The position numbers and the translations under genes were made by a program. Positions 1,831-61,946 of a stretch of 64,000 bases of DNA are shown here, piece by piece. The notes under the pieces were generated by a model. The model worked only from the letters and a program-made list of their open reading frames with translations. It did no database searches and had not been told where the DNA came from. The stretch comes from Corynebacterium jeikeium (GTDB taxonomy: Bacteria > Actinomycetota > Actinomycetes > Mycobacteriales > Mycobacteriaceae). Location of the stretch: the NCBI RefSeq assembly GCF_028609885.1, contig NZ_CP063195.1, positions 558,001 to 622,000 on the forward strand, given 5' to 3'. Within the stretch, counting starts at the first letter, position 1. Every line of letters starts with the position of its first letter.

Positions 1831-1851
1831 TTCTTCTCTCTTGTTGACGCC
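1831..1851 (-). repeat. GGCGTC/A-rich motif copy 1
   Basis: Reads GGCGTCAACAAGAGAGAAGA on the minus strand. It lies at the 5' end of the AbgT-type gene, and its purine tail is in position to act as the ribosome binding site for the TTG start. Confidence 0.6.
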
Positions 1852-1990
1852 AAACGCCTTAATCGGGTTGGGTTGCGACTTTACATTCTGGGGTGCCGCG
1901 GGACAGCAGAAGCCCAGAATCAACGGAGCCGTACGAAGCCTCAGGAGTAACAACAGTCACTTTGGACTATCTTTGCCTCACTAGTTTCGC

Positions 1991-1996
1991 TACACT
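1991..1996 (+). promoter_or_regulatory. -10 element, leaderless ftsE
   Basis: TACACT lies 8 nt before the GTG at 2005. That spacing puts the transcript start at or next to the start codon, which suggests a leaderless mRNA. Confidence 0.5.
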
Positions 1997-2004
1997 GTGT
2001 GCTC

Positions 2005-2694
2005 GTGATCACCTTCGAAAACGTAACCAAGAGCTATTTGTCTTCCGGGCGGCCGGCCCTGGACAACATCACCCTGGACATTGAAAAGGGCGAGTTTGTC
2101 TTCCTCATCGGCCCGTCTGGCTCCGGTAAGTCCACGTTTCTGCAGCTCATCCTGCGCGAGGAAAAGCTGGATTCTGGAGACCTGCACGTCGCCGGCTACC
2201 ACGTGAACAAGATCAAGGGGCGGGATGTGCCGAAGCTGCGCCAGCGTATTGGCTATGTCTTCCAGGACTTCCGCCTGCTGCCGAAGAAGACCGTCTTCGA
2301 CAACGTTGCCTTCGCTCTCGAGGTTATCGGCAAGAAGCGCGCGGAAATCCAGCACTTGGTGCCTGCGGCATTGAAGACCGTTGGCCTCGACGGAAAGGAA
2401 AACCGCTTCCCGCACGAGCTGTCGGGTGGCGAACAACAGCGCGTGGCGATCGCGCGGGCGTCAGTAAATAAGCCTTTGGTCCTGCTGGCGGACGAGCCGA
2501 CAGGCAACCTGGACCCCGATACTTCATCTGAGATCATGATGCTGCTCAACCGCATTAACCAGAACGGTACGACCGTGGTGATGTCCACCCACGACGATGT
2601 GGCGGTGGACTCTATGCGTAAGCGCGTGATCGAGCTGTCGAAGGGCAAGCTTGTCCGCGATGACGAGCTCGGTATGTATGGCGTGGGCCACTAA
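2005..2694 (+). CDS. ftsE: Cell division ATP-binding protein FtsE
   Basis: ATPase of the FtsEX ABC-type complex, which couples septal ring events to peptidoglycan hydrolase activation at the inner face of the membrane. Visible motifs are Walker [10 protein letters not shown], signature [14 protein letters not shown], and Walker [13 protein letters not shown] followed by a switch histidine (STHDD). The length of 229 residues is usual for the family. I chose GTG 2005 ([11 protein letters not shown]) over the GTG two codons upstream because it matches known FtsE N-termini and because a TACACT -10 box ends 8 nt earlier. ftsX follows after a spacer of about 53 nt that contains 10-bp repeats. Confidence 0.95.
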
Positions 2695-2697
2695 TAC

Positions 2698-2737
2698 GGA
2701 ACAGTACGGATCAGTAAAGATCAGTAGGGAACAGTAG
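2698..2737 (+). repeat. 10-bp tandem repeat between ftsE and ftsX
   Basis: Four consecutive 10-mers (GGAACAGTAC, GGATCAGTAA, AGATCAGTAG, GGAACAGTAG) fill the spacer immediately before the ftsX ribosome binding region. The repeat lies outside both reading frames. Confidence 0.75.
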
Positions 2738-2747
2738 GGAAACATTA

Positions 2748-3650
2748 ATGAAGACCAACTTTGTGTTCCGCGAGGCGTTTTCGGGCCTGCGTCGCAACAT
2801 GACGATGACGATCGCCATGATCATCACCACCTCCATCGCGCTGGCGCTGCTGGCCACCGGCTTTCTGCTGAGCGCAATGACGGAGAGGACGAAGGACATC
2901 TACTTCGACCGCATTGAGGTGATGGTGCAGCTCGACGATAAGATTTCGAGCTCCGACCCAACGTGTGCCTCTCCGGAGTGCTCCGAGATCAAGCAGCAGT
3001 TGGAGGGCGACGAGGCGGTGAAGTCCGTGACCTTCCGTAACAAGGAGCAGTCCTACGAGCGCTTTGTGGAGTTGTTCGGCGAGTCCGATCCGCAGCTAGT
3101 GGAGCAGACGGAGAAGGATGCGCTGCCCGCCGCCTTCCACGTGCGCCTGGCCGACCCGGAGAACTCCGCGCCCATCGACGCGCTGCGGGACAATCCGGCG
3201 GTGACGAACATCGTGGATCAGGGCGACAACCTGGAGGCCGCGATGCGCAACCTGGACTCCATCCGCAACGCCTCCTTTATCGTGGCCGCAGTTCAGGCCA
3301 TCGCAGCGATCTTCCTGATCATGAACATGGTGCAGATCACCGCGTACTCGCGCCGCAGTGAGATCAGCATCATGCGCATGGTCGGCGCTTCGCGCTGGTA
3401 CACCCAGGCTCCGTTTGTCCTGGAGGCCATGATGGCCGCCCTGATCGGTGCGGTGCTGGCGGTTGGTGGCATGTTTGCCGCGAAGATCCTGGTGGTAGAC
3501 CGCGCCCTGAAGGCCGTGTACGACCAGCAGCTGGTGGCGCGCGTGACGAACAGCGACCTGTGGCTGGCCGCGCCGTTTGTGGTGCTGGTCGGCGTGGTCG
3601 TGGCAGCTATCACCGCGCAGGTCACCTTGCGCTGGTATGTGAAGAACTAG
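2748..3650 (+). CDS. ftsX: Cell division protein FtsX
   Basis: Membrane subunit of FtsEX. At 300 residues it shows the family layout: a cytoplasmic N-terminus, TM1 at about residues 20-42, an extracytoplasmic domain of about 130 residues that would contact a peptidoglycan hydrolase, then three TM segments in the C-terminal half. The extracytoplasmic part has a Cys pair (PTCASPEC, about residues 75-80), which could form a disulfide. The ATG at 2748 follows the repeat spacer, whose last unit (GTAGGGAA) supplies a modest Shine-Dalgarno. It is co-directional with ftsE and probably co-transcribed. Confidence 0.95.
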   Translation: MKTNFVFREAFSGLRRNMTMTIAMIITTSIALALLATGFLLSAMTERTKDIYFDRIEVMVQLDDKISSSDPTCASPECSEIKQQLEGDEAVKSVTFRNKEQSYERFVELFGESDPQLVEQTEKDALPAAFHVRLADPENSAPIDALRDNPAVTNIVDQGDNLEAAMRNLDSIRNASFIVAAVQAIAAIFLIMNMVQITAYSRRSEISIMRMVGASRWYTQAPFVLEAMMAALIGAVLAVGGMFAAKILVVDRALKAVYDQQLVARVTNSDLWLAAPFVVLVGVVVAAITAQVTLRWYVKN

Positions 3651-3662
3651 CACTGCGCCCTC

Positions 3663-3686: not shown

Positions 3687-3720
3687 CTTAAGCATTTTCG
3701 CTCGAGGGAGCGCCCGGTGG

Positions 3721-6399: not shown

Positions 6400-9123
6400 A
6401 TGGCAGCGCCCGAGACACAACCGCAACCCAGCTGGCGCTTTGCCGGAACCTTCCGGCCGTACCAGCAGCGCATCCTCGAACGCTTCGACGACCTGAAGCA
6501 GGATCACCGCATCCACATCGTCGCCGCGCCCGGATCTGGCAAAACGATTCTCGGACTGGAACTCATCTGCCGCCTCGGCCAACCAGCCCTGATCCTGGCT
6601 CCCACCATCACCATCCGCGACCAGTGGATCGATCGTTTCGCATCACACTTTCAACACAACGGCGCATCGAACCCGCGGGGGTGGTGTTCCACCTCGCTGC
6701 ACAATCCAGCCTTCCTGACGGTCATCACCTACCAGGCGCTGTATTCCGCATACACCCAGGCGCTCGACGAGGAAACGGGGGAGGACTTCGCGGACCTTAA
6801 CATCCTGGACGCAGTCCGCGACATAGGTACGGTGTGCCTCGACGAAGCACACCATCTGCGATCCCAGTGGCACCGCGCCCTGACAGCCTTCATGAACCAG
6901 CTGGACCACCGAAAAGCAGAGCTCAACACCATCGCGCTGACGGCGACCCCGCCGTATGATTCCACCCCCAGCGAATGGCAACGCTACGAACAGCTGTGTG
7001 GCCCTATCGACGAGGAAATCTTCGCCCCGGAACTCGTGGCCGCCGGTAACCTGTGCCCGCATCAGGATTACGTCTACGTTACGAAGCCCAGCCAGGAAGA
7101 AGAGCAGGAAATAGCCGAGCTGCGCCGGCGTGGCAACGAAGTGTTGGTAGACCTGCAACGTCAGGGCATCTTGGCCCAATTGGCGGAGGATCTCGGCCGG
7201 CTCACGGACGAACAGTTACAGGTGGCCCTCGACGACGAGGAGAATTTCTACGCCCTCAAAATCCTTCTTGCCGCTGCTGGGTACCCGATTGCGCCGCATA
7301 TCCAGGCGATACTCAGCGAAAAGCGCCCTGAACTCGCCGGCGAGCTGGGGCTGCAGTTCGTCATCGACCATCCCGACTTCTTCCGCGCCAGCTCGTCGGT
7401 AGCCTCCGCTCTGCGGGCGAACAACCTGCTGAACAAGGGGAAGATCTCCGTCACGGGAGAGAAGAAAGTCAACCGCATCCTCACCCATTCCGCGGGCAAG
7501 ATCCGCGCCGTCAGTGACATTGCCGAAGAGGAAGTCTCCGCGATGTCCGAAAGCCTGCGCATGGTGATCCTCGCGGATTACGTCCAGCGGGATTACCTGT
7601 CCAGCGTGGGCAGTGACGATGCTCTGGTCCACGTGGGCGTCATCCCCATCTTCGAAGCATTGCGACGGCGCGTAGGCGGCACCGCAAGAATCGCCGCCAT
7701 CAGCGGCTCAGTGATCGTCATCCCGCGCACGGCGCTGGACGAGGTGAAACGCTTTGCAGAGGACCTCGATGGGGAAGTCACCGGCGCCAAGAACCTCAAC
7801 GATGAGTATGTGGAGGTGCGCTTTTCCGGTGGCACGCGGGTATCCGTGCCCGCCATCACCCGCGCTTTTCAAGATGGACTGTTCACGATCCTGGTGGGCA
7901 CCGCCGCGCTGCTGGGGGAGGGGTGGGATTCACCCTGCGCCAACGCGCTCATCATCGCCAGCTCCGTACGTGCGTTTATGCTGACCAACCAAATGCGTGG
8001 CCGGGTGATTCGGGTGGACCCCGCCGTCCCGGATAAGACCGCGAACATTTGGCACATCGCGACGTGCGAACCGAGCAAAGGTGCCGGGCGCGGAGCATGG
8101 CTCGACCAGTTGGCACAGAACGGGGCGCAAGCGCTGAACGTCGGTACAGGGGACTCGTTGGATGTGCTGGGCTCACACGACGTGCACTCGCTGCAGAAGC
8201 GCTTCGAGGCCTTCGTAGCGCCGCGCGCCGATGCGCCGGTAATCGAGAACGGCTTCGATCGCTGCTACGCAGAGCCACCCGTCCGCGCCTACCGCAGCAT
8301 CGATGCCGCCAACGGACAGATGCTGGCGCGAGCCTTCCGTCGAGACCTGATGCGCAACCAGTGGCTAGAGGCTCTAGACATGGGGAATGTGCCGGATGGT
8401 CAGCCCTACGAGATGCAGTTCCACATCGACGTTGAAAAGCCCGCATCGGCCGGGGTGGTGCCTTACCTGGACGTTATCCTGGGCTATATCTTCTTCCTCG
8501 CGGTCATGTTCGGCCTGGCAGTGGGGCGCGTCCTGCCGCACCTCCCGGTCGGGGGCCAATGGCTGGCGTTCGGGGTGCTTGCGCTGCTCGGCGGTGCGGC
8601 GGTACTGATGCGCACCCGGAAGGTCCAGCAACTGACGGATACCAGCAAGCGCCTGAAAGCCGAGGCCACGGCGCTGGTACGCACGCTGAGCGCCCTCGGC
8701 TTGATCGAAACCCGCAACCTCATGGCGATCGTCGACGAGGGCGCTATCGGGGCGAATGTGCGCCTGTCCGGCGGAACCTTCGCCGAAAGGAAGCTTTTTG
8801 CGGACGCCATAACTCAGTTATCTGGGGAGGTCCGCAACGCGCGCTACCTCATTGCGCCCGCGCATCAGGTCCGCATCCGCGGCATCTTTTGTGCCCAGTC
8901 GGTGCCCGACGTGCTCGGCACGCGTCGGGAGAACGTGGATGAGTTCTTGAACCAACTGCAACGCATGGGCTTGCCGATGCGGGCGGTGTATACCCGCAGC
9001 CAGGAGGGCCGGGAGTTCCTTCTGCAGGCGCGCAAGCTCAGCGGATCTAATATTGCAGCCCGCCTGGCAAGCCAGACGCGGCGCTACCAGAAGCAGTCAC
9101 CGTTGGAATTTCCTATTGTCTGA
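6400..9123 (+). CDS. SF2 helicase with C-terminal membrane hairpin
   Basis: Superfamily 2 DEAD/DEAH-type helicase or translocase of 907 residues. The RecA1 half has Walker A AAPGSGKT (residues 42-49), DEAH (about 148) and motif III TATPP. The RecA2 half has GTAALLGEGWDSP and motif VI QMRGRVIR (about 530). After the helicase core, two hydrophobic segments (about residues 687-708 and 715-733, LDVILGYIFFLAVMFGLAVG and WLAFGVLALLGGAAVL) form a likely membrane hairpin, followed by a charged C-terminal domain of about 170 residues with no family I recognise. This architecture would tether a nucleic-acid motor to the membrane, which is unusual. A defence or DNA-processing role is possible but not shown. 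The start is supported by a -10 box 7 nt upstream. Confidence 0.85.
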   Translation: MAAPETQPQPSWRFAGTFRPYQQRILERFDDLKQDHRIHIVAAPGSGKTILGLELICRLGQPALILAPTITIRDQWIDRFASHFQHNGASNPRGWCSTSLHNPAFLTVITYQALYSAYTQALDEETGEDFADLNILDAVRDIGTVCLDEAHHLRSQWHRALTAFMNQLDHRKAELNTIALTATPPYDSTPSEWQRYEQLCGPIDEEIFAPELVAAGNLCPHQDYVYVTKPSQEEEQEIAELRRRGNEVLVDLQRQGILAQLAEDLGRLTDEQLQVALDDEENFYALKILLAAAGYPIAPHIQAILSEKRPELAGELGLQFVIDHPDFFRASSSVASALRANNLLNKGKISVTGEKKVNRILTHSAGKIRAVSDIAEEEVSAMSESLRMVILADYVQRDYLSSVGSDDALVHVGVIPIFEALRRRVGGTARIAAISGSVIVIPRTALDEVKRFAEDLDGEVTGAKNLNDEYVEVRFSGGTRVSVPAITRAFQDGLFTILVGTAALLGEGWDSPCANALIIASSVRAFMLTNQMRGRVIRVDPAVPDKTANIWHIATCEPSKGAGRGAWLDQLAQNGAQALNVGTGDSLDVLGSHDVHSLQKRFEAFVAPRADAPVIENGFDRCYAEPPVRAYRSIDAANGQMLARAFRRDLMRNQWLEALDMGNVPDGQPYEMQFHIDVEKPASAGVVPYLDVILGYIFFLAVMFGLAVGRVLPHLPVGGQWLAFGVLALLGGAAVLMRTRKVQQLTDTSKRLKAEATALVRTLSALGLIETRNLMAIVDEGAIGANVRLSGGTFAERKLFADAITQLSGEVRNARYLIAPAHQVRIRGIFCAQSVPDVLGTRRENVDEFLNQLQRMGLPMRAVYTRSQEGREFLLQARKLSGSNIAARLASQTRRYQKQSPLEFPIV

Positions 9124-9133
9124 CCTCTCACAC

Positions 9134-9139
9134 TATTCT
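9134..9139 (+). promoter_or_regulatory. -10 element, leaderless antiporter gene
   Basis: TATTCT ends 7 nt before the ATG at 9147. The box lies 11 nt past the helicase stop codon. Confidence 0.5.
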
Positions 9140-9146
9140 AAGGTGC

Positions 9147-10502
9147 ATGAATGCAGTCCTAGTCGCCGTCGTCGTCATGCTGGCCCTCGCCCTGCTTCGG
9201 GTGCATGTGGTTCTGGCGCTTTTCATCGGAGCTATCGTCGGTGGTCTCCTCAGCGGCCTTGGCCTTGACGCCACGATGGTGGCCTTCCAGGAAGGCCTCT
9301 CCGGCGGCGCGAAAATCGCGCTGAGCTATGCCCTGCTTGGCGCCTTTGCGATGGCCGTCGCCAGCGCAGGGCTGCCCAAGCTTCTGGCGGACTCCCTGCT
9401 GGGGAAACTGGGCGTCACCAACGAAGAAACAAAGAGCCGCGCCGTCGCCGTAACGAAATGGTTGATGTTGGCCGGCATCCTCGCTATGGCCGTGATGAGT
9501 CAGAACCTCATCCCTGTGCACATCGCGTTCATTCCGCTGATCATCCCGCCGCTGCTGAGCGTGTTCAACAAGCTGCAGCTGGACCGCCGTCTGGTCACCT
9601 GTATCCTGACGTTCGGCCTGATCACCACGTACATGTGGATCCCGCTGGGCTTCGGCTCGATCTTCCTGAACGACATCCTGCTGGGCAACATCGACAACGC
9701 AGGCATGAACACCGATGGCATCAACGTGATGAAGGCCATGGGCATCCCGGCGCTGGGTATGTTCTGTGGTTTGCTGATCGCGGTCTTCATCACGTACCGC
9801 AAGCCGCGCGAGTACGAAGAACGCCCGATTGTGGAGGTCGAGACCGACCCGGACGGTGAGGTCTCCCGCTACAAGATCCTCGTCTCCGTCATCGCGATCA
9901 TCGCCACCTTCGCCGTGCAGGTCGTTATGCAGGCTATGGACATGGAGGCCGATTCGCTGCTGATCGGCGCTCTGGTGGGGCTGACGATCTTTATGGGCAC
10001 CGGCGCGGTCGATTGGAGGAAGGCGGACGATGTCTTCACCGCCGGTATGCGCATGATGGCCCTGATCGGCTTCATCATGATCACCGCCCAGGGCTTCGCC
10101 GCGGTCATGCAGGCCACCGGCGAGGTCGAGAGCCTGGTCAACACCTCCGCCGACCTGTTCGCGGGCAACAAGCCCGCCGCCGCCCTGGTGATGTTGTTGG
10201 TTGGCCTGGTGGTCACCATGGGCATCGGCTCGAGCTTCTCCACTCTGCCGATCGTCGCAACGATCTACGTGCCTTTGTGCGCATCGATGGGCTTCTCGCC
10301 GCTCGCCACCGTGGCGATTGTGGGTACTGCGGGTGCTCTGGGTGACGCCGGTTCCCCGGCCTCCGACTCGACCCTAGGCCCCACGTCGGGTCTGAACGCG
10401 GATGGCCAGCACGACCACATCCGGGATTCCGTGATCCCGACGTTCCTGCACTTTAATATTCCGCTGCTGATCGCCGGCTGGATCGCGGCGATGGTTCTGT
10501 AG
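9147..10502 (+). CDS. Na+/H+ antiporter (NhaC-like) family permease
   Basis: Polytopic inner-membrane transporter of 451 residues with about 11-12 hydrophobic segments. The N-terminus (LRVHVVLALFIGAIVGGLLSG) and the repeated GGAKIALSYALLGAFAMAVA-type segment are typical of the Na+/H+ antiporter family that includes B. subtilis YuiF. The C-terminal GDAGSPASDSTLGPTSGLNA motif is conserved there. Members have been linked to sodium or amino-acid transport, so the substrate is open. The gene has its own -10 box and probably its own leaderless transcript rather than riding on the helicase mRNA. A motif copy lies at 9411. Confidence 0.8.
   Translation: MNAVLVAVVVMLALALLRVHVVLALFIGAIVGGLLSGLGLDATMVAFQEGLSGGAKIALSYALLGAFAMAVASAGLPKLLADSLLGKLGVTNEETKSRAVAVTKWLMLAGILAMAVMSQNLIPVHIAFIPLIIPPLLSVFNKLQLDRRLVTCILTFGLITTYMWIPLGFGSIFLNDILLGNIDNAGMNTDGINVMKAMGIPALGMFCGLLIAVFITYRKPREYEERPIVEVETDPDGEVSRYKILVSVIAIIATFAVQVVMQAMDMEADSLLIGALVGLTIFMGTGAVDWRKADDVFTAGMRMMALIGFIMITAQGFAAVMQATGEVESLVNTSADLFAGNKPAAALVMLLVGLVVTMGIGSSFSTLPIVATIYVPLCASMGFSPLATVAIVGTAGALGDAGSPASDSTLGPTSGLNADGQHDHIRDSVIPTFLHFNIPLLIAGWIAAMVL
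9411..9431 (+). repeat. GGCGTC/A-rich motif copy 4
   Basis: GGCGTCACCAACGAAGAAAC, inside the antiporter gene in a predicted loop (GVTNEETKS). Confidence 0.6.
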
Positions 10503-48452: not shown

Positions 48453-48469
48453 GATGAGCTCCTAGAAAA

Positions 48470-48672
48470 CGAGATGGGTATGGCGTTGATCCAGTCGCTG
48501 GCGTCATGACCTTCGTTGCAAGCACCCACGTTACAAAGAGACCTAGTTTGAAACTGGCCGTGTCCCTATCAGCTGTCATCGAAAGTCCTGGCACCCGGCG
48601 GCAACACCCCCCGGATTATGGAAACTACAGGGCAAGTAAGCCATACCGGGACCAGCGACTATCCCCATTATC
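48470..48672 (-). ncRNA. Candidate bridge RNA region of the IS110 element
   Basis: About 200 bp of non-coding sequence upstream of the transposase, the location of bridge RNA in IS110-group elements. It contains an internal GTGTCCCTATCAG that repeats the element end sequence, as a donor-recognition loop would, and several short inverted repeats. No transcript or fold was computed. Confidence 0.35.
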
Positions 48673-48680
48673 AGGGACAC

Positions 48681-48883
48681 TCACAAGGTAACGGGTGGTT
48701 CTTGTGGGACCATTTTTCTGGTTGAACTTGAACCGTTAGCGCGGTTAAACTATTTGCGTACTCTTAGGCTGTTTTTCACTTATTGAACTGAGTTTTAGTG
48801 AGTTTTCAGCCTTTAGTAAGCGCCTGGTCTGCTGGGGATCTGACAAGAGGTAGGCGCACTTTAGCTTCAGGAAGGACTGAGGG
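48681..48883. other. Adhesin promoter region
   Basis: Contains TTGAAC (48722) 18 bp before TAAACT (48746), a plausible promoter giving a leader of about 130 nt, and the ribosome binding site AGGAAGGA before the ATG at 48884. The IS ends close to this promoter. Confidence 0.45.
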
Positions 48884-51800
48884 ATGAACTCCTCTAAGAA
48901 CAAGGTTTCACGGCGGAATGCCCGTACTGGCGTTGCTGCACTGTCCGCCATCACTCTCGCGCTGGGTTCACTCAGCATCTTTGCTCCCAATGATTTCGCG
49001 CCCGAGGCCACCGCAGCCACGTTCACTGGCGGTATCCGAGACAAGTCCGGCGCGGTGGAGAAGGACGCACAGAAGGCCTCCGACCTGCCGGCCGGTTCGT
49101 GTGTTGTCTCGGAGAACGCTCCGCAGGGCAGCCAGGCTGGTTTCAGCTGGAATACCTCTGAGCCGTCTGCGACCAGCCCCTCGAAAACTCGGTGGGGTCT
49201 GAGCGTCTCCTTTGATAACTCGAAGGATCGCACATTCGCCGATTGGTACTTCACCAATACGGGGAACCTTGGCGCACTCTTGGATACCGGCGAGGTGCCT
49301 TCCATGGAGGCCGGCCAGACCTTCCTTGACAAGAGCGTCACTCACAAGGCCGACGAAAGCATCGTCATTGATGGTGCTCGCGCACAACGAAACCTGAATC
49401 TCAACGCAGAGATGACCGAGGAGGAGGTCAAGCAGTTCGCTTCGGCCACTGCCGACAATCCCGTGCGCTACGCCTGGCAGAGCAATTACAAGAAGGACAA
49501 TCCTTCGGGCCTGAGAGCCACGCAAGGTCCCAGCTTGGCATTCAGCGCTACTGTAAACCCGTGGCCGAGCGAGAACATCGAATGTAACCCGATCACGGTG
49601 TCGTGGGAGAACTTTGAGAAGCACGTTATCGTCCCTGGTGAGCAAACTAAGGTCGGTAAGGTCAACGTTCCTGCTGTGCAGAACGGCGGCACTGACGACT
49701 CTATGTCCCGCATGGTTGTGGAGGCCTACGACGGCAACGGCCAGTTCATCGGCACCACGGACCCGGCAGTCTCCGGCGGTACACAGAACCTGCGTATCGA
49801 CGAAGATGGCAATATCTTCTTCACCTGGCCGGAGTACCGCGGTACTGACTTGGCGACCGACAAGAACGTCAGCTTCTCCGTTCTGGCGAAGCCGCGTACC
49901 GTTGACCAACTCCAGGCCGCTGCTCACCACAACACCGGCGGCGAAGACGGCAGTGCCTTCGACAGCTCCAACTCGCTGGATCGCTACAACAAGGCGAACG
50001 TCATCGACTCCAAGGCGTTCTCCCTGGACGACACCGAGTACCACTCTCCGAAGTACGACAAGACGGACGCGTCGATCATCTCCGGTGTCGACAGCGCTAC
50101 CGGCCCACTTGCTACCGAGCCCCAGAAGGTCACCTTCACCCAGACCCCGGACCTGATCAAGGACCTGGCAAAGAAGAAGGGGGATAACGGCTACGAGGCC
50201 AAGGTTGAGCTGGATGAGAAGTACGTCTACGACGGCTGGACCGTCGAGATGGACGAGAACTACAACGTCACTGTCACCGCTCCGGAAAACCCGAAGCCGG
50301 GTAGCTTTGCGCGTCCGAAGATCACCGTCGAGTACTCCAACGGCTCTACCGATGAGCTTGAGCTGTTCGTGGTTGTTGACCCGAACAATACCCAGGTCAC
50401 TGACCTGGTGCGTCCGGGCCTATCCAAGGGAAAGCTGAATGAGGACATCACCGCACAGGTGGGCACCAAGTCCATCATGAAGGGCCACAAGCCGGTTCAC
50501 CCGGCCAAGTTCGAGGTCGACCCGTCCACTGTGCCGGACGGCTGGACCGTGACCGTTGATGAGACCGGCAAGGTCACCGCGAAGGCGGATGACACCGTGG
50601 CGCCGGGCAGTATCATCACTCCGAAGGTGAAGGCCACCTACCCGGATGGCACCACCGATGAGATCGAGACCCAGTTCCAGGCGATCGTCGATATCAAGAT
50701 CCCGACCTACGACACGGTGGCGAACAAGCCGAACGCGAAGGTCAGCCTGACTCCCAAGCTTCCTGAGCGCGGCCTGAGCGGCAACACGAGCGATGAGGCC
50801 CCGAAGCGCTACACCTTCAAGGACGGTAAGACCGAGTACACCCACACGGATGATAGCGGCACGTGGACCGTCAAGATCGACGAGAACACTGGCAAGATCA
50901 CCACGACGATTCCAAAGACCGCTCCTGAGGGCTACATCCTCGATATTCCGGTGCTCGCCTACTACGACAACGCTGACAAGCCGCAGGAGGTCAAGGGCAC
51001 CGTCGTCGTGCTGAAGAGCAACGTCGCTCCCGTGTACGAGGTGCAGACCACCGGCCCGAACCAGGCCGTGAACCACAACGTTCAGGACGCCCCTAAGGAT
51101 TCGAAGTTCTCGTTCGGCAAGGATGAGAACGACCAACCGATCACCGAGCAGGAAGTTGACGGCTGGAAGTATAAGGTTGACCCGAATACCGGTGTCGTCA
51201 CTTCCACTCCGCCAGCAGATGCCAAGCCGGGTGACCAGAAGACTGTTACCGTCACCGTCGAAGCCCCGGACGGGTCGACTTCGGTGGTTCCCGTCACCAC
51301 TGTGGTGAAGCTGACCAATAAATGGGAAGCGGAGCCCTCCTACCCGGTACAAACGGTATACCCGGGCGAGACCGCCACGCTGCCAGTCGCTCTCAACAAG
51401 CCGGAGAACATCAACGTCGCGAAGGACAACCCGTACAAGCTGGGTGAAGTCCCTGCCGGTTGGAAGGCCACCATTGATGACAATGGTCAGATCACCGCGA
51501 CCGCGCCGGAGACCGCGAAGCCGGGCGACAAGATTGACGTTCCGGTCATCGTGACCTACGAGGACGGATCGAAGGACAACACGACCGCTACCGTGAACGT
51601 CATCGACGTCCCGAAGCGTGAGGTTCCGTTCAAGGTCGAGTACAAGTACGACGACACCATCCCTGCCGGCACCTACAAGGTTGAGACCACGGGTGTTCCT
51701 GGCGCGGAGAAGATGAAGAAGGACGGTACCTGGGAACGCACCAAGGAGCCGGTCAACGAGGTCGTCGTCGTCGGCACCAAGCCTGCCGAGAGCGCCAAGG

Positions 51801-54775
51801 ACGTTACGTGGAAGGTGCCAATCCCGTACCCGACTGAGGTTCGCGAGAACCCGGACCTGAAACCTGGTGAAACCCGGGTTGTCCAGGAAGGTGAGAACGG
51901 CGAGAAGACCTACACCGCTAAGTTCACCGCCAAGGGCGACAAGGCCGAGGTAGTCGAGGAAGAGACCACTAAGGAACCGGTCAAGCGCATCGTCGAATAT
52001 GGTCCGGGTCTGGCTCCGAGCGAGCTGGTGACCAAGACCGAGAAGCCGATTCCGTTCGAAACTGAGGTTGAGTTTGATCCCAACCTGCCGGCCGGCGAGA
52101 AGGTCGTCGACCAGAAGGGTGAGCTCGGTACTGAGGTGGTGACCTCTACGCAGAAGCTTGTCGACGGTAAGCCCTCCGGCGACCCGACTGTGACCACCGA
52201 GCGCACGAAGGAACCGACGACAGAGAAGATCCGCGTCGGAACCAAGACCACCGGTGAGAACACCGAGACCTACAAGGCTGAGGCACCGTACAAGGTCGTC
52301 GTAAAGTACGACCCGAATATGCCTGCTGGTGAGTCGAAGGTGACTACCAAGGGTGAGCCGGGTGAGAAGACGGTGACGGTTAAGCGCGACATCGTGAACT
52401 CCAAGCCGGGCGATCCCAAGATCACCCAAGAGATCACCAAGCAGCCTGTCGACGAAGTCATCACCGTTGGCACCAAGCCGTCTGAGGTCTCTGAGAAGGT
52501 TATGTGGACCGCTCAGGTTCCGTTCGATGTTGAGACCCGTCCGAACCCGGAGTTGAAGCCGGGTGAGATCAAGGTTGTTCAGAAGGGTGTGCCGGGTGAG
52601 AAGACCTACACCGCGGACTTCACCGCGAAGGGCGACCAGGCAACGGTGACCCCGGAGGAGAAGCAGACCAAGGCTCCTGTCAACGAGATCATTGAGTACG
52701 GCCCTGCGGCCGAGGACACTTCTGTGGTGACCAAGGTTGAGAAGCCGGTTCCGTTCGAGACCGAGATCGTCTTCGACGACACCCTCGCAGAGGGTGAGCA
52801 GGTTGTGGACCAGCAGGGTGAGCTGGGTACCGAGGTTGTCACCTCTACCCAGAAGATCAAGGACGGCAAGCCAGACGGCGAGCCGACCGTGACCACTGAG
52901 CAGACGAAGGCGCCGAAGAACGCTAAGATTCGCGTTGGCACTAAGACCACCGGTGAGACCACAAAGACAGTCGAGGCCCAGATTCCGTTCGGGGTGAAGA
53001 TTGAGTTCGACCCGAACATGCCTGCTGGCTCCTCCGAAACTGTCACCGAAGGCAAGCCGGGCAAGAAGACGATCACTGTGACTCAGAAGGTCACTAACTC
53101 CCAGCCGGATGGTGAGGCCACCGTTGAGGAGAAGGTCATCGAAGAGCCAGTTGATCAGGTAATCAAGGTCGGTACAAAGCCATCGGAGGCTAACGAGAAG
53201 GTCACTTGGACTGCTGAGATTCCGTTCAAGGTCGTAACCCGTCCGAATCCGGAGTTGAAGCCGGGTGAGATCAGGGTCGTCCAGAAGGGCGTTCCGGGTG
53301 AGAAAACTTACACGGCTGACTTCACCGCTAAGGGCGACCAGGCAACGGTCACCCCTGAGGAGAAGCAGACCAAGGATCCAGTCGACGAGATCATCGAGTA
53401 CGGCCCGGCAGCTAAGGACACCACTGTGGTGACCAAGGTTGAAAAGCCGGTTCCGTTCGAGACCGAGATCATCTTCGATGACACTCTGGCAGAGGGCGAG
53501 CAGGTTGTGGACCAGCGGGGCGAGCTTGGTACCGAGGTTGTGACCTCCACTCAGAAGATTGTGGACGGCAAGCCTTCAGGCGACCCGACCGTGACCACTG
53601 AGCGCACAAAGGAACCGGTTAAGCAGATCATCCGCGTCGGTACGAAGCCGGAAGAGACCAAGCCGGTTTCTACGAAGGTCGAGTGGACCGAGATGACCCC
53701 ATTCGAGACCGAGATCCGCGTGAACCCTGAGCTGCAGCCTGGCGAAACCAAGGTTTTGCAGGAGGGTACGCCTGGTGAGATCAAGCACACAGTCAATGTG
53801 ACTGTGAATAACGGTGAGGTAAGCAAGGAAGAGTCTTCTGAGGAGATCAGCAAGCCTTCGCCGCGCATCATCGAGGTTGGCCCGGCAGAGAACCAGACCG
53901 AGCTGACGGACAAGCACACCGAGGAGATTCCGTACGAGACCATTGTTGAGCCCGACCCGAACCTCGAAGCCGGCAAGGTTGAAGAGGATCAGCCTGGTGT
54001 CGTTGGTGAGAAGGAAGTTTCCAAGACCTGGAAGCTTGTAAACGGTGAGCCTGTTGGCGAGCCGGAGACCTCCGAGACGATCACGAAGGAAAAGCAGGAT
54101 CGTAAGATCCGCGTCGGCACCAAGTGCAACTGCGAGACCCCTGAGGATCCGGATAACCCGGATAACCCCGGCAACCCGGACAACCCGGATAACCCCGACA
54201 ACCCGGATAACCCCGACAACCCGGATAACCCCGACAACCCGGATAACCCCGACAACCCGGATAACCCGAAGGATCCGGAGAATCCGACCGACCCGGATAA
54301 CCCGAACGACCCGGATAACCCGAAGGATCCGGAGAATCCGACCGACCCGGACAACCCGAAGGATCCGAACAAGCCTGGCGGTTCCACTGGTTCGGTGACC
54401 CCGAAGCCGAGCCTGCCTGGCATCATCGGTTCCCTAGGAATCGGCGGGGCCATCGTGGGTAGCGGATCTCACGGTTCCACCCCGAAGCCGGACTCCAAGC
54501 AGCCGGGTACCCCGGGCAATCCGGGCAACGCAGACAAGCCGGGCACCCCTGGCAAGTCCAGCACCCCGAGCCAGCCGGGCTCCAAGGGCGGCACGTCCAC
54601 CGGCAGCTCCGCAAGCAGCGGAAGCTCCAGCTCTCAGAAGCAGGTTGATAGCCCGCGGATGAGCACCCTGGCCTCCACCGGCGCGAACGTGCTCGGCGTG
54701 TTCGCAGTCGGCCTGGCGCTGATCATCGGCGCCATCCCGCTGCTGCGCCGCCGCCGCGAAGAAGGCGAGGCCTAA
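48884..54775 (+). CDS. Giant G5-repeat, LAxTG-anchored surface protein
   Basis: 1963-residue cell-wall adhesin candidate. The order is: signal peptide (1 to about 44, ending APEATAA); N-terminal beta-rich domain (45 to about 390); four to five Rib/YPDG-like domains (about 395-905) with YPDGTTDEI, YEDGSKDNT and similar endings; eleven G5-like repeats of about 78 residues (about 911-1750); an Asp-Asn-Pro repeat stalk (about 1754-1830); a Gly/Ser/Pro spacer; and the sorting signal LASTG (about 1928) with hydrophobic segment and RRRREEGEA tail. G5 domains in staphylococcal Aap mediate zinc-dependent intercellular adhesion. LAxTG suggests a class E type sortase; none is in the window. ATG 48884 has AGGAAGGA upstream. 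Confidence 0.9.
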   Translation: MNSSKNKVSRRNARTGVAALSAITLALGSLSIFAPNDFAPEATAATFTGGIRDKSGAVEKDAQKASDLPAGSCVVSENAPQGSQAGFSWNTSEPSATSPSKTRWGLSVSFDNSKDRTFADWYFTNTGNLGALLDTGEVPSMEAGQTFLDKSVTHKADESIVIDGARAQRNLNLNAEMTEEEVKQFASATADNPVRYAWQSNYKKDNPSGLRATQGPSLAFSATVNPWPSENIECNPITVSWENFEKHVIVPGEQTKVGKVNVPAVQNGGTDDSMSRMVVEAYDGNGQFIGTTDPAVSGGTQNLRIDEDGNIFFTWPEYRGTDLATDKNVSFSVLAKPRTVDQLQAAAHHNTGGEDGSAFDSSNSLDRYNKANVIDSKAFSLDDTEYHSPKYDKTDASIISGVDSATGPLATEPQKVTFTQTPDLIKDLAKKKGDNGYEAKVELDEKYVYDGWTVEMDENYNVTVTAPENPKPGSFARPKITVEYSNGSTDELELFVVVDPNNTQVTDLVRPGLSKGKLNEDITAQVGTKSIMKGHKPVHPAKFEVDPSTVPDGWTVTVDETGKVTAKADDTVAPGSIITPKVKATYPDGTTDEIETQFQAIVDIKIPTYDTVANKPNAKVSLTPKLPERGLSGNTSDEAPKRYTFKDGKTEYTHTDDSGTWTVKIDENTGKITTTIPKTAPEGYILDIPVLAYYDNADKPQEVKGTVVVLKSNVAPVYEVQTTGPNQAVNHNVQDAPKDSKFSFGKDENDQPITEQEVDGWKYKVDPNTGVVTSTPPADAKPGDQKTVTVTVEAPDGSTSVVPVTTVVKLTNKWEAEPSYPVQTVYPGETATLPVALNKPENINVAKDNPYKLGEVPAGWKATIDDNGQITATAPETAKPGDKIDVPVIVTYEDGSKDNTTATVNVIDVPKREVPFKVEYKYDDTIPAGTYKVETTGVPGAEKMKKDGTWERTKEPVNEVVVVGTKPAESAKDVTWKVPIPYPTEVRENPDLKPGETRVVQEGENGEKTYTAKFTAKGDKAEVVEEETTKEPVKRIVEYGPGLAPSELVTKTEKPIPFETEVEFDPNLPAGEKVVDQKGELGTEVVTSTQKLVDGKPSGDPTVTTERTKEPTTEKIRVGTKTTGENTETYKAEAPYKVVVKYDPNMPAGESKVTTKGEPGEKTVTVKRDIVNSKPGDPKITQEITKQPVDEVITVGTKPSEVSEKVMWTAQVPFDVETRPNPELKPGEIKVVQKGVPGEKTYTADFTAKGDQATVTPEEKQTKAPVNEIIEYGPAAEDTSVVTKVEKPVPFETEIVFDDTLAEGEQVVDQQGELGTEVVTSTQKIKDGKPDGEPTVTTEQTKAPKNAKIRVGTKTTGETTKTVEAQIPFGVKIEFDPNMPAGSSETVTEGKPGKKTITVTQKVTNSQPDGEATVEEKVIEEPVDQVIKVGTKPSEANEKVTWTAEIPFKVVTRPNPELKPGEIRVVQKGVPGEKTYTADFTAKGDQATVTPEEKQTKDPVDEIIEYGPAAKDTTVVTKVEKPVPFETEIIFDDTLAEGEQVVDQRGELGTEVVTSTQKIVDGKPSGDPTVTTERTKEPVKQIIRVGTKPEETKPVSTKVEWTEMTPFETEIRVNPELQPGETKVLQEGTPGEIKHTVNVTVNNGEVSKEESSEEISKPSPRIIEVGPAENQTELTDKHTEEIPYETIVEPDPNLEAGKVEEDQPGVVGEKEVSKTWKLVNGEPVGEPETSETITKEKQDRKIRVGTKCNCETPEDPDNPDNPGNPDNPDNPDNPDNPDNPDNPDNPDNPDNPDNPKDPENPTDPDNPNDPDNPKDPENPTDPDNPKDPNKPGGSTGSVTPKPSLPGIIGSLGIGGAIVGSGSHGSTPKPDSKQPGTPGNPGNADKPGTPGKSSTPSQPGSKGGTSTGSSASSGSSSSQKQVDSPRMSTLASTGANVLGVFAVGLALIIGAIPLLRRRREEGEA
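51617..54130 (+). repeat. Eleven G5 repeats with 702-bp super-repeat
   Basis: Repeats fall into three alternating types (A: RPNPELKPGE; B: VEKPVPFETE; C: FDPNMPAG). The order is one divergent unit, then ABC ABC AB AB. Equivalent A units at 52537 and 53239 are 702 bp (234 residues) apart and nearly identical, which shows recent segmental duplication. Confidence 0.85.
54144..54370 (+). repeat. DNP stalk, 9/18-bp slippage-prone repeat
   Basis: Tandem GATAACCCCGACAACCCG (18 bp, two Asp-Asn-Pro triplets) repeated four to five times, then a 45-bp-scale block repeated (KDPENPTDPDNP). Lengths are multiples of 9 bp, so changes stay in frame. Confidence 0.9.
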
Positions 54776-54836
54776 CCGCCACTAGCGTTCAGCGCTAGCG
54801 CCTAGCGGAACAGCCAGTCCCGGCTAGTACCGCGAA

Positions 54837-54876
54837 CGAAAGGGCGACCACCAACACAACGGTGGTCGCCCTTTCG
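54837..54876 (+). terminator. Terminator after surface protein gene
   Basis: CGAAAGGGCGACCACC / GGTGGTCGCCCTTTCG stem with an 8-nt loop, 61 nt past the stop. Confidence 0.85.
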
Positions 54877-54912
54877 CACATTTGCCACCGCTTCGTGGCA
54901 GAATGACAACTT

Positions 54913-55719
54913 ATGGAACTGGTAGTGCTGGGATGCTCCGGAAGCGTCGAAGGGCCCGATAGCGCCGCATCGGGATACATCGTCCGCGACACAACCACGG
55001 CCAACCCCGACCTCCTCCTCGACTGCGGCCCCGGCGTACTCAGCGCCATGCAACGCGCAGAGGACATCGACCCCTCCGCCTGCCACGTCGCCTTCAGTCA
55101 CATGCACGCCGACCACTGCCTAGACTTCCCCTCGCTACTCGTCTGGCGCCGGTTCCACCCCACAGCCTCCTCCACTCAACGCCACCAACTACTCGGCCCC
55201 GCTATCGCCCACCGCCACCTCTCCGCCGCTGGCGCCGACGCACCCGAGCGCCCCGACGACTTCACCGACACCTTCGACATCAACGTCTATAAGGTAGGCG
55301 AGGGTCTTTTTGACGCCACCACGTACCCAGCCCACCCCATCGGCCCATTCACCCTCTACGCCGCCACCGCCGTACACCCCACAGAGGCCTACCTGCTGCG
55401 CGTGGAAGACAACGCAGGTAACTCCCTGGTGTACTCCGGGGACACCGCCTGGACCGACAACCTGGCCCACATCGCAGCGGGAGCAGACGTATTCCTCTGC
55501 GAAGCCACCTGGGGCGAAAATGCAGAAGGCCAGCCCAGCGGCATGCATATCTCCGGCGAAGACGCAGGCCGTGCAGCACAGGCAGCAGGCGTGGGCAAGC
55601 TCGTGCTCACCCACATCCCACCGTGGGGCGATGCAGACGCAGCGGTCCGCGGCGCCGCCCGCCACTACGACGGTGAGATCCTCGTCGCCCGCCCCGGCAT
55701 GCGCATAACTGTCAGTTAG
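54913..55719 (+). CDS. MBL-fold hydrolase, Rv1339-type phosphodiesterase-like
   Basis: 268-residue metallo-beta-lactamase-fold enzyme with SHMHADHCLD (HxHxDH), YSGDTAWTD and LTHIPPW metal motifs. Position before rph and rdgB matches Rv1339, reported as an atypical class II cAMP phosphodiesterase; activity here is inferred from orthology. In related genomes murI precedes it directly; here the IS and surface protein genes lie between. The start ATG 54913 gives MELVVLGCSGS, the normal family N-terminus. Confidence 0.88.
   Translation: MELVVLGCSGSVEGPDSAASGYIVRDTTTANPDLLLDCGPGVLSAMQRAEDIDPSACHVAFSHMHADHCLDFPSLLVWRRFHPTASSTQRHQLLGPAIAHRHLSAAGADAPERPDDFTDTFDINVYKVGEGLFDATTYPAHPIGPFTLYAATAVHPTEAYLLRVEDNAGNSLVYSGDTAWTDNLAHIAAGADVFLCEATWGENAEGQPSGMHISGEDAGRAAQAAGVGKLVLTHIPPWGDADAAVRGAARHYDGEILVARPGMRITVS
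55297..55317 (-). repeat. GGCGTC/A-rich motif copy 20
   Basis: GGCGTCAAAAAGACCCTCGC on the minus strand, inside the MBL-fold gene (sense reading GLFDATT). Confidence 0.5.
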
Positions 55720-59830: not shown

Positions 59831-59912
<82 letters not shown>

Positions 59913-59919
59913 CAGATTT

Positions 59920-60411
59920 TTAGAGCTCCTTGGCGATGCGCGCGACGTGGCCGGTGGCCTTTACGTTGTACTTCGCCACGGCGATCTTGCCTTCCTCGTC
60001 AATAACGAACGTGGAGCGGATCACGCCCTGCACGACCTTCCCGTAGTTTTTCTTCTCTCCGAATGCGCCATAGCTTTCCATGACCGACTTGTCGGCGTCC
60101 GAAAGAAGGGGGAAGGTCAGCTCGTACTTATCGCGGAACTTCTCCAGAGCCTCCACCTTGTCTGGAGAGATGCCAACCACGTCCACGCCCTGGCCGTTAA
60201 GCTTGGTGAGGGAATCGCGGAAGTCGCAGGCCTCGGTGGTGCAGCCGGGAGTATCGGCCTTGGGGTAGAAGTACACGATGACCTTGCGGCCCGCGTAGTC
60301 CGCCAGGCTCACATTCTTGCCGGAATCGCTCGGCAGGTTGAACTCCGGTGCCTTGTCTCCGACCTCAAGACGGATGGGCTGGTTTGCGGGGGTGTTGCTG
60401 TTATCAGTCAT
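59920..60411 (-). CDS. bcp: Thioredoxin-dependent peroxiredoxin (Bcp/PrxQ)
   Basis: Reduces peroxides with thioredoxin. 163 residues; the peroxidatic Cys is in KADTPGCTTEACDF, with the resolving Cys five residues later, the PrxQ pattern. LGDKAPEF-type start and GVIRSTFVIDEEGKI are family features. The ATG at 60411 has a TAGGGT -10 box 7 nt upstream and is preferred over an in-frame extension to 60450. Confidence 0.95.
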   Translation of the reverse strand: MTDNSNTPANQPIRLEVGDKAPEFNLPSDSGKNVSLADYAGRKVIVYFYPKADTPGCTTEACDFRDSLTKLNGQGVDVVGISPDKVEALEKFRDKYELTFPLLSDADKSVMESYGAFGEKKNYGKVVQGVIRSTFVIDEEGKIAVAKYNVKATGHVARIAKEL

Positions 60412-60418
60412 GCATCCC

Positions 60419-60424
60419 ACCCTA
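60419..60424 (-). promoter_or_regulatory. -10 element, leaderless bcp
   Basis: Minus-strand TAGGGT ends 7 nt before the ATG at 60411. Confidence 0.45.
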
Positions 60425-60499
60425 GCGAAAGCGCCGTCGGGTGCGATCATTTACAATGTTCAGGTAGCACTTAAACGTTCGAATAAGGGAGAAACTTCC

Positions 60500-60778
60500 G
60501 TGGCCCGTAGCATCGATGCCATCCAGCGCGACATTGAACGCACCCGCAACCAGCTGGGACGGACGCTGGAGGAGCTGTCCGTCCGTGCGGATCCGAAGAA
60601 CCTGGCGGATGACGCTCGCGGCCAGGCCGTGAACACCCTCAAGGAGCCGAAGGTGCAGATGGTCATCGGCGGCGTAGTCGCCGGTGTTGTCCTGCTGACC
60701 GCCCTGGCCGTCGGCTCCAAGCGCAAGGAAAAGAAGCAGATCAAGGAAATCCAGCGCCTGCTGGCCGCTACCCGCTAA
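60500..60778 (+). CDS. DUF3618 family membrane protein
   Basis: 92-residue protein: an N-terminal helix with RDIERTRNQLGRTLEELSVRADPK, typical of DUF3618, one TM segment (MVIGGVVAGVVLLTALAV) and a basic tail. Found near bcp in many actinobacteria. Function unknown. GTG start with AAGGGAGAAAC upstream; a TACAAT -10 box lies about 45 nt before it. Confidence 0.85.
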   Translation: MARSIDAIQRDIERTRNQLGRTLEELSVRADPKNLADDARGQAVNTLKEPKVQMVIGGVVAGVVLLTALAVGSKRKEKKQIKEIQRLLAATR

Positions 60779-60788
60779 GCCGGTAGCG

Positions 60789-61946
60789 TTGCCACAACTG
60801 GCACTACCCAGCCCCGCGAAGCTGGCCACTCTGGCTCTGCTGACCGTCCTGTCGATCGCCGCAGGTTTCGCCTGCGAGGCGGTGGGAGTCCCCGCCGCCT
60901 GGATCTTTTCCTTCCTGATCGTCTTCGGTATCTATGCCATCTTCAGCGACCGCCAGGTCAGCCCACCCAAAAAGGCGATGATCCCCTCCCAGGTGATCAT
61001 CGCCCTTTTGTGTTCCTCGCCCCTGACCACCATCGATTTCGGCACCATTGTTTCCTATGCCGGGCCGACGGCCATGTCGCTGATCGTCACGCTGGCGGTC
61101 TGCCTACTGGCCTCCTGGCTGCTGGTGCGCATTCACCGGGTTGGTCCGGCCACGTCGGTGCTGGCCACGCTTGCAGGCGGCGCCAGCGCGATGGTGATGC
61201 TCTCCCGAGAGCTCAATGCGGACACGCGCTTTGTCACCCTCACCCAATACCTGCGCGTATCCATTATCGTCCTCACGCTCCCCGGGCTGGTCACGCTGCT
61301 CGGCCGCGTCGAAGGCGGTGAGGCAGATGCGGCCGAGAGGGCGTCAACAGGAAAAGAAAGCCTCCTCGACGGCCTGCAGACGAACTGGCAGGGCATAGTA
61401 GGCGCGGTGGTCGTGGGGCTGGCCGTGTGGGCGTTTACGAGGCTGACGGCGCGGTGGTTCAGCATCAGCTCGCCCTACCTGCTGCTGAGTATTGCCTTCG
61501 CCATGATCGGCGTGATGGTGTTTGGCGTGCCGCACGAGTTCATCGCACCGAACGGATTGCTGGAGAAGCTGGCGTACGCGCTCGTCGGCGTGCAGGCCGG
61601 CGGCACCCTGACGAAGGGCGCGCTGCGGCAATTCGTGAAGGCCCTGCCAGTGATCCTGGGCGTGATTGCCCTGATGATCGCCAGCTCTATCGGCACTGCC
61701 TTCGCCATCGCGGGCCTGTGGGACTTTAAGGTTCTGGACGCCTACCTCGCCACCGTGCCGGGCGGAATCTACGCCGTTCTTGCATTTGCGCACGACGCTG
61801 GCAGCCAGCCGATCGTCACGGTCATTCAAGTGATGCGCATGATCGCCATGCTGGTGGTGGGCGCTTACGCGCCGCAGATCATCCGGTGGGTGTTCGGCGC
61901 GGGCGCGGCCGACGGGCGGCCGGAGCCGCGCGAAACGCAGCGCTAG
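60789..61946 (+). CDS. AbrB/ammonia monooxygenase-like membrane protein
   Basis: 385-residue polytopic protein of the AbrB (PF05145) family, annotated in other genomes as ammonia monooxygenase or putative transporter; no enzymatic role is shown by sequence. The two-fold repeat of SLIVTLAVCLLASWLLVR...TSVLATLAGGASAMVML and the later VPGGIYAVLAFAHDAG is the family signature. TTG start at 60789, 10 nt after DUF3618, so an operon is likely. The cytoplasmic linker between the halves holds a motif copy. Confidence 0.8.
   Translation: MPQLALPSPAKLATLALLTVLSIAAGFACEAVGVPAAWIFSFLIVFGIYAIFSDRQVSPPKKAMIPSQVIIALLCSSPLTTIDFGTIVSYAGPTAMSLIVTLAVCLLASWLLVRIHRVGPATSVLATLAGGASAMVMLSRELNADTRFVTLTQYLRVSIIVLTLPGLVTLLGRVEGGEADAAERASTGKESLLDGLQTNWQGIVGAVVVGLAVWAFTRLTARWFSISSPYLLLSIAFAMIGVMVFGVPHEFIAPNGLLEKLAYALVGVQAGGTLTKGALRQFVKALPVILGVIALMIASSIGTAFAIAGLWDFKVLDAYLATVPGGIYAVLAFAHDAGSQPIVTVIQVMRMIAMLVVGAYAPQIIRWVFGAGAADGRPEPRETQR
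61340..61360 (+). repeat. GGCGTC/A-rich motif copy 22
   Basis: GGCGTCAACAGGAAAAGAAA, in the inter-domain linker of the AbrB-family gene (ERASTGKES). Confidence 0.65.

Follow-up and report, generated by a model that had tools for sequence, protein, structure and literature searches.

A GGCGTC motif with an A-rich tail dispersed through Corynebacterium chromosomes: a candidate DNA uptake sequence

Main finding and proposed mechanism

A 64,000-nucleotide stretch of the chromosome of Corynebacterium jeikeium (NZ_CP063195.1, positions 558,001 to 622,000, referred to here as the window) contains many copies of a motif made up of the core GGCGTC and an A-rich tail on one side of it. Our analysis found that the motif occurs throughout this genome (the home genome) on both strands and with a spacing that is more even than random, that its core outlasts control hexamers in related genomes, and that the motif or altered forms of it, which we call dialects, are enriched in most Corynebacterium genomes. 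We consider it likely, with a rough probability of 0.6, that the motif serves Corynebacterium as a DNA uptake sequence, which the Tad-pilus/ComEA/ComEC machinery reads and which biased import together with recombination has spread. This reading was chosen as the best of those tested because the sequence-based hallmarks that were tested were found, save for close inverted pairs and for a scarcity in acquired DNA that is weakly supported.

In the mechanism that we propose, about 1,300 copies of GGCGTC with its A-rich tail would label both strands of the chromosome, and a DNA receptor on the cell surface, belonging to the Tad (Flp) pilus, ComEA and ComEC machinery, would bind this tag, by which cells would preferentially import DNA from their own kind. 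Once imported, tagged fragments would recombine into the chromosome, and the bias in import would let tags build up through point mutations at places where the genes can bear them; it would be this drive, rather than another function, that keeps the copies. When the preference of the receptor shifts, the whole genome would slowly follow, giving rise to dialects.

The motif in the window

The motif was described with a weight matrix that was iterated on 464 kb of the 2.52 Mb home genome (the window plus twenty stretches of 20 kb, or 21 stretches), and the motif-level work on the home genome is based on this 18% sample. The consensus, GKK-GGCGTC-AnnAAnAAARR, is non-palindromic and consists of the core followed by the A-rich tail. 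With a cut-off of 11.5 bits, at which about 10% false positives are expected, 37 sites were found in the window. An earlier note on this DNA had listed 22 copies, all of which have GGCGTC at the positions and strands given, in equal orientation (11 per strand), and 21 of which are among the 37 sites. Its hand count of 19 copies with 7 or more A in the 15 nt after the core was reproduced; the G that it described as usually preceding the core is present in 13 of the 22. For all GGCGTC in the window, 22 of 59 are followed by at least 7 A in the next 15 nt, against 9 of 577 for eight control hexamers, and GGGCGTCAAYAARARAAG, with as many as 3 mismatches allowed, matched the window 10 times against 0.14 expected in shuffles. 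The copies are listed below with their coordinates, strand and matrix score; "new" marks copies absent from the earlier list.

1835..1852, minus, motif copy, core 1846, 23.4 bits
2456..2473, plus, weak motif copy, core 2457, new, 13.8 bits
3944..3961, minus, motif copy, core 3955, 20.7 bits
4549..4566, plus, motif copy, core 4550, 22.4 bits
8792..8809, minus, weak motif copy, core 8803, new, 12.8 bits
9410..9427, plus, motif copy, core 9411, 19.6 bits
12088..12105, plus, motif copy, core 12089, new, 16.0 bits
13406..13423, minus, motif copy, core 13417, 20.4 bits
15285..15302, plus, motif copy, core 15286, 17.0 bits
17175..17192, minus, motif copy, core 17186, new, 15.9 bits
17529..17546, plus, motif copy, core 17530, new, 19.2 bits
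19158..19175, plus, motif copy, core 19159, intergenic, 20.8 bits
21810..21827, minus, weak motif copy, core 21821, new, 13.8 bits
25236..25253, minus, motif copy, core 25247, intergenic, divergent pair with 25292, 21.7 bits
25291..25308, plus, motif copy, core 25292, intergenic, 25.4 bits
25790..25807, minus, weak motif copy, core AGCGTC 25801, new, 14.7 bits
25818..25835, minus, weak motif copy, core 25829, new, 12.0 bits
28372..28389, minus, motif copy, core 28383, intergenic, 16.8 bits
30224..30241, minus, weak motif copy, core 30235, new, 12.9 bits
31514..31531, plus, motif copy, core 31515, new, 16.0 bits
32516..32533, minus, motif copy, core 32527, 19.9 bits
33337..33354, plus, copy of the earlier list, core 33338, below the 11.5-bit cut-off, 10.0 bits
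38199..38216, minus, motif copy, core 38210, 19.7 bits
38339..38356, minus, motif copy, core GCCGTC 38350, new, 16.1 bits
39219..39236, plus, motif copy, core 39220, intergenic, 21.5 bits
41787..41804, minus, motif copy, core 41798, 17.6 bits
42018..42035, plus, motif copy, core 42019, 18.0 bits
44432..44449, plus, motif copy, core 44433, intergenic, 22.6 bits
45283..45300, minus, motif copy, core 45294, 21.2 bits
45818..45835, plus, motif copy, core 45819, 19.7 bits
48141..48158, minus, weak motif copy, core GGCGTG 48152, within the IS110 transposase gene, new, 13.1 bits
48877..54274, no strand, motif desert over most of the large adhesin gene, unaligned to the fetched stretches of the relative G146; no site of at least 11.5 bits from 48152 to 55312
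55301..55318, minus, motif copy, core 55312, 17.7 bits
56641..56658, plus, weak motif copy, core GGCATC 56642, new, 12.7 bits
59318..59335, minus, motif copy, core 59329, 21.5 bits
60093..60110, plus, motif copy, core 60094, new, 16.9 bits
61339..61356, plus, motif copy, core 61340, 24.1 bits
61726..61743, minus, motif copy, core 61737, new, 15.1 bits
62023..62040, plus, motif copy, core 62024, new, 16.5 bits

Abundance in the genome and control for codon usage

The GGCGTC hexamer by itself is unremarkable, as the earlier note had said, with 472 occurrences on both strands of the 464 kb where base composition predicts about 495. A search of the whole genome of 2,524,840 bp for GGGCGTCAAYAARARAAG, again allowing up to 3 mismatches, gave 246 matches (123 on each strand) against 14 (3 and 11) for the reversed pattern, so the copies are neither confined to the window nor close to the frequency expected from shuffling. 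In the 464 kb sample the matrix found 263 sites of at least 11.5 bits where an order-4 Markov null gives 24 to 25, and extrapolation from this sample gives about 1,300 genuine sites per genome.

Because the reversed-pattern control does not model codon bias, we also ran a synonymous shuffle on the home genome and on stretches from 13 relatives, in which codons were swapped within genes and bases were shuffled between genes (20 rounds; gene calls were made by an in-house script and not by a published caller). This codon-preserving control, which the earlier note had proposed, left a mean of 52 of the 263 sites at 11.5 bits; at 16 bits 9.9 of 158 remained, and at 18 bits 4.5 of 126. The removal of most strong sites by synonymous shuffling indicates that the signal resides in the DNA. 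The 263 sites are placed antisense to genes (134), in sense (88), between genes (38) and at gene edges (3). The suggestion that copies inside genes often share the reading frame that gives Ala-Ser was borne out in part: this frame (sense frame 2) holds 31 sites, while antisense frame 0 is the commonest (119) and sense frame 0 holds 48.

These data bear on the explanation that codon usage, protein motifs or composition produced the motif as a by-product, in favor of which it can be said that GACGCC (Asp-Ala) and GGCGTC (Gly-Val) occur mostly in frame 0 and that GGCGTC of weak matrix score is also mostly antisense (95 of 174). The antisense excess of the motif is probably due to codon usage, since weak GGCGTC shows the same excess. 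We nevertheless rejected the by-product explanation, to which we give practically no probability, because of the loss of strong sites in the synonymous shuffle, a site density between genes that equals the density within them (5.9 and 5.6 per 10 kb) and the conservation of the core described below. Strong sites of at least 20 bits reach 2.8 per 10 kb between genes against 1.5 within genes.

Several general methods for motif discovery were discarded. A free two-component expectation-maximization model drifted into an AT-rich mixture, maximal-order Markov scores of k-mers left the motif invisible, the home genome included, and seeded matrices set against a Markov null either failed or slid to codon periodicity in several relatives, where they were replaced by the comparison of words with synonymous shuffles.

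Arrangement along the chromosome

Each of the 21 sampled stretches carries between 3 and 8 sites per 10 kb, and no gradient from origin to terminus was visible across them. The spacing is more even than random, with a coefficient of variation of the gaps of 0.75 against 0.96; at 11.5 bits none of 1000 randomizations was as even, and at 14 and 16 bits the P values were 0.003 and 0.014. Counts in bins of 5 kb gave P values of 0.007, 0.08 and 0.015 at the three thresholds. With the origin placed at the contig start and the terminus near 1.15 Mb by coarse GC skew, 132 sites fall on the leading strand and 131 on the lagging strand, that is, without replication-strand bias. In a comparison of 84 kb with the relative G146, the 11.8 kb that could not be aligned contained 0.85 sites of at least 14 bits per 10 kb against 4.84 in the aligned DNA (1 and 35 sites, P 0.03; at two other thresholds P 0.04 and 0.05).

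The symmetry between strands is relevant to the proposal that the motif marks recombination hotspots in the manner of Chi and that a RecBCD-like or AdnAB-like nuclease reads it. An asymmetric motif in about 1,300 copies would suit such a role, and a change of dialect could follow the enzyme. Chi of Escherichia coli, however, is biased to the leading strand, and the home sites are not; in addition, the title of a 2003 paper, as it is cited in PMC1193525, says that Corynebacterium lacks a recombinational repair system. We therefore regard a Chi-type role as improbable.

The main rival to an uptake sequence is a site bound by a cytoplasmic chromosome organizer (a nucleoid-associated protein, a condensin loader or a nucleoid-occlusion factor), whose binding would select for regular spacing. 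The even spacing, the coverage of all 21 stretches and the strong conservation of the core would suit an organizer as well, while the missing gradient, the lack of strand bias and the non-palindromic consensus do not. More generally, the motif resembles the Chi, KOPS, matS, SlmA and Noc sites as a set of short chromosomal tags that one protein would read. Those sites are strand-biased, domain-restricted or palindromic, and the Corynebacterium motif is none of these; the palindromic sequence and regional placement of sites of the SlmA, Noc and parS type were not found in it.

Conservation in relatives

The earlier note had proposed a test of whether positions are conserved among strains, and in our comparison with relatives the cores do outlast control hexamers. 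In G146, at 87% identity, the whole core is kept at 27 of the 29 aligned window sites of at least 14 bits, against 201 of 393 control hexamers (Fisher P 3e-6). Weak GGCGTC is kept there in 11 of 17 cases, a difference that also argues against a by-product of coding. The cores were kept at 20 of 21 sites both in G131 (control hexamers 230 of 322, Fisher P 0.02) and in G204 (control hexamers 186 of 288), and at 6 of 15 sites in G240, which is at 74% identity (control hexamers 36 of 217, Fisher P 0.03). By one and the same pattern, G240 carries 335 copies and the home genome 349, and this nearly equal number suggests that positions turn over while the number of copies is held. Fourteen site rows from G131 and G146, a small sample, show substitutions only, for example of one core base in G146, and one of the two cores lost in G146 belongs to a site between genes at which four positions are mismatched or gapped. 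From this small sample of alignments, the sites appear to evolve by point mutation in place.

Dialects within the genus

The pattern GGCGTCRNNAADAARRR with up to 1 mismatch was found 349 times in the home genome and 174 to 346 times in eleven other Corynebacterium genomes, while its controls in these twelve genomes gave 1 to 11 matches per strand. For the survey of the genus, a pattern was called enriched when it had at least 20 matches and at least 4 times the control count plus one. Under this rule 173 of 242 Corynebacterium genomes are enriched in CGTCGAYAAGCRAA (up to 1 mismatch), which occurs in them 13,407 times on the forward and 13,531 times on the reverse strand against 427 control matches. 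In G118, for instance, it has 132 and 145 copies on the two strands, against 0 and 3 for the control. The form of GGCGTC with the A-tail, whose counts were compared in 80 of the 242 genomes (the 69 without CGTCGAYAAGCRAA enrichment and 11 others), is enriched in 18 of those 69, and exact GNCATCGAYAAGC, the CATC dialect, in 13 of the remaining 51, these 13 having been picked by eye under the same rule. Together, the three patterns mark 204 of the 242 genomes and leave 38 without any of them; a search for words in four of the 38 (G071, G243, G166 and G233) showed that two, G071 and G243, carry words of their own. Outside the genus, 149 other genomes of the order showed no enrichment of CGTCGAYAAGCRAA (at most 14 matches per genome), and in 24 genomes of other families the home-dialect pattern stayed close to background, the highest being G058 with 17 matches against 8 in the control.

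Dialect words were scored against synonymous shuffles in samples of 71-100 kb from 13 relatives, with the following result:

G061, G114 and G259: forms of CGTCGATAAGC
G006: GGCATCGnCAAGC
G033 and G180: GGCGTCG plus A
G071: CGCGGCGTCAT
G243, GC-rich: GGCGTCCnnC (n, position not fixed)
G066 and G010: weak TGGCGTCG
G214: weak word GCATCGnnAG
G233 and G166: no convincing word

Most of these words share the register (GG)C(G/A)TC(R)nnAA, the word of G243 fitting in the core only, and G259 unites a CGTCGA-AAGC core with an A-rich tail. In G243 (68% GC), GGCGTCC..C is threefold over the level of the synonymous shuffle (93 against 29) and is perhaps a dialect adapted to high GC. The form CGTCGATAAGCGAA has AAGCG in common with ACAAGCGGT, given in excerpts of PMC12616744 as the uptake signal sequence (USS) of Actinobacillus, a likeness that is probably a coincidence.

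The dialects weigh against the chromosome organizer introduced above, as species carry hundreds of copies altered at the same base (CGTC or CATC) or in the tail, and a change of the same base over hundreds of copies is explained more easily by drive than by selection of one site after another. Taking both sides together, we hold an organizer to be a tentative second choice, possible and clearly less probable than an uptake sequence. The dialects also bear on the proposal that the motif is the self-mark of a restriction-like or BREX-like system of defense or modification that spares tagged DNA. A genome-wide tag that is rarer in strain-variable DNA would mark self in this way. Known modification enzymes use fixed sites, whereas this motif is long and graded and tolerates variation in its tail, and its presence in 204 of 242 genomes is ill-suited to patchy islands of defense genes; we find a defense mark even harder to credit than a Chi-type role.

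Competence and Tad pilus genes

The earlier note had recommended a search for competence genes and for a binding protein, and the genes were found. In the home genome comEA (SLBB plus HHH domains) is followed by comEC (PF03772) and by a gene that by eye is holA-like. The tad locus encodes TadA and a T2SSF protein, together with a DUF4244 pilin that carries a Flp-type processing motif, a small protein that has a pilin-like N-terminus and matches no Pfam family, and a TadE/G-like protein that scores at the cut-off; the protein preceding TadA is TadZ-like by position alone, its ParA match being under the cut-off. The home ComEC is 72 to 89% identical to that of five C. jeikeium or Corynebacterium sp. 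loci and 53% identical to that of a sixth Corynebacterium locus. A comEC match was present in 241 of the 242 Corynebacterium genomes, and in chosen genomes we found comEA (27 of 27, 26 over the cut-off), the Tad ATPase (22 of 22, 21 over the cut-off), the Flp-like DUF4244 protein (29 of 29) and the dprA family (12 of 12). At the level of genes, a competence machinery of comEA, comEC, dprA and Tad pilus is present, and the activity that we propose for it is DNA uptake with a preference for the tag.

The likeness to an uptake sequence that the earlier note had proposed was found in copy number, strand symmetry, the arrangement of core and tail, genic as well as intergenic copies, even spacing, evolution in place, dialects and genes, and from these features we infer a function in uptake. 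A number of results speak against this reading. Co-variation of the motif with competence genes was sought across the genus and none was found: the 38 genomes without any of the three patterns all have a comEC match; G214, in which comEC was not found, still has 58 copies of the CATC dialect; three genomes in which comEC was matched twice and not once (G001, G072 and G255) satisfy the enrichment rule at 102, 26 and 228 matches; and G166, with a stop inside comEC, has 4 motif matches, so that no consistent link to comEC appears. The machinery is nearly universal and therefore cannot be tied to the motif by presence or absence. A survey of minor pilins gave no receptor: pilin-like neighbors were parsed in 15 of 29 loci, by a crude rule and with some wrong frames, and no candidate stood out. 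The tail is no better conserved than its flanks (identities of 0.925 and 0.946, 0.912 and 0.916, and 0.906 and 0.886 for tail and flank in three relatives), and in G240 it is below them (0.590 and 0.684), which suggests that A-richness and not the exact letters matters. Close inverted pairs are not enriched: counted over all orientations, 4 gaps are shorter than 60 nt, 3 of which are between inverted sites, against 8.3 expected. Strain-variable DNA is weakly depleted of sites (P between 0.03 and 0.05, depending on the threshold), and no report of natural transformation of Corynebacterium was found among the papers listed in the literature search.

A first hint that motif-poor G214 and G166 pointed to a link with comEC collapsed on the 58 CATC-dialect copies of G214. 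The assembly of G214 is 90% complete and contains tad and dprA-family genes and no comEC match, an absence that would be due to incomplete assembly or to recent loss. In-frame TGA codons were seen within the comEC match of G166 (C1:543012-543797) and the comEA match of G066 (locus L081). In the tad locus L182, positions 8237-9420, two small pilin-like proteins adjoin the DUF4244 Flp-like pilin, and one of the two, the TadE/G-like protein, has a pair of cysteines 17 positions apart that by eye is also present in 13 of the 15 parsed relatives. The small pilin-like proteins beside DUF4244 are a possible place to seek the receptor.

Relation to known uptake systems

The DNA uptake sequence (DUS) of Neisseriaceae is described in passages of PMC3630211 and PMC12616744 as thousands of short tags, often intragenic, with dialects that differ by few bases between related species, and its receptor ComP is given in passages of the latter as a type IV minor pilin. 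The Corynebacterium motif likewise consists of short tags at high copy that are commonly intragenic and form dialects by few bases; it differs in belonging to an unrelated taxon with Tad/Flp pilus machinery and in the lack of enrichment of close inverted pairs, which are common for DUS. The USS of Pasteurellaceae, according to passages of PMC7811141, has a GC-rich inner core with AT-tracts, occurs as 1,465 core copies that are spread relatively evenly, arises by point mutation and is scarce in newly acquired DNA. A core with an AT-rich part, high copy number, even distribution and evolution by point mutation are common to both, while the Corynebacterium motif has a single, one-sided A-rich tail and another core. 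It is neither a DUS nor a USS proper, the host being Corynebacterium and the core GGCGTC instead of the CTG or GCGG of DUS and USS cores (excerpts of PMC12616744). Our reading is therefore of a motif that would resemble the two in manner of working and would be a separate case.

For the machinery, the closest comparison is with Micrococcus luteus, whose transformation, in the part of PMC4322843 available, requires comEC and the tad genes of the Flp pilus. Corynebacterium has in common with this Flp/Tad-dependent system comEA, comEC, dprA and tad genes; the term "uptake sequence" is absent from the available text of that paper. Among the papers listed in a search of the literature that left most subscription journals outside its coverage, there was no report of this motif, nor of a self-label uptake tag in Gram-positive bacteria. 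A survey of spaced motifs gives, in the portion available, only CRISPR pairs for three Corynebacterium species (PMC5217627), and discrimination of short motifs in uptake is stated in excerpts of PMC12616744 to be known only in two Gram-negative families.

We lean, by a modest margin over even odds, towards an independently evolved recognition of self-DNA, with a tag read by a Tad pilus and at least three dialects spread over more than 200 species; gene exchange inside a single Gram-positive genus would be partitioned by it. If true, this would be a third, independent case, in Actinomycetota, and would mean that tag-biased uptake and molecular drive recur; it would directly predict that Corynebacterium, the industrial C. 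glutamicum among them, can be naturally transformed, and would provide a sequence rule for which species can swap chromosomal genes. Should the motif have a function other than uptake, a nearly genus-wide chromosome mark that forms dialects still needs explaining.

Other observations in the window

The largest gap between sites in the window, from 48152 to 55312, spans an adhesin gene that adjoins the IS110-family transposase gene (47241-48452), and most of this stretch is unaligned to the fetched part of G146. The adhesin gene (48884-54775) encodes a G5/Rib surface protein of 1,963 residues, which has a putative adhesin domain and long Rib domains and in which G5 is matched eleven times; the gene lacks strong copies of the motif. 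Between called genes, the segment 5383-5765 is 75% identical to a region of a Tsukamurella plasmid for which no gene is listed, and is possibly a structured RNA gene.

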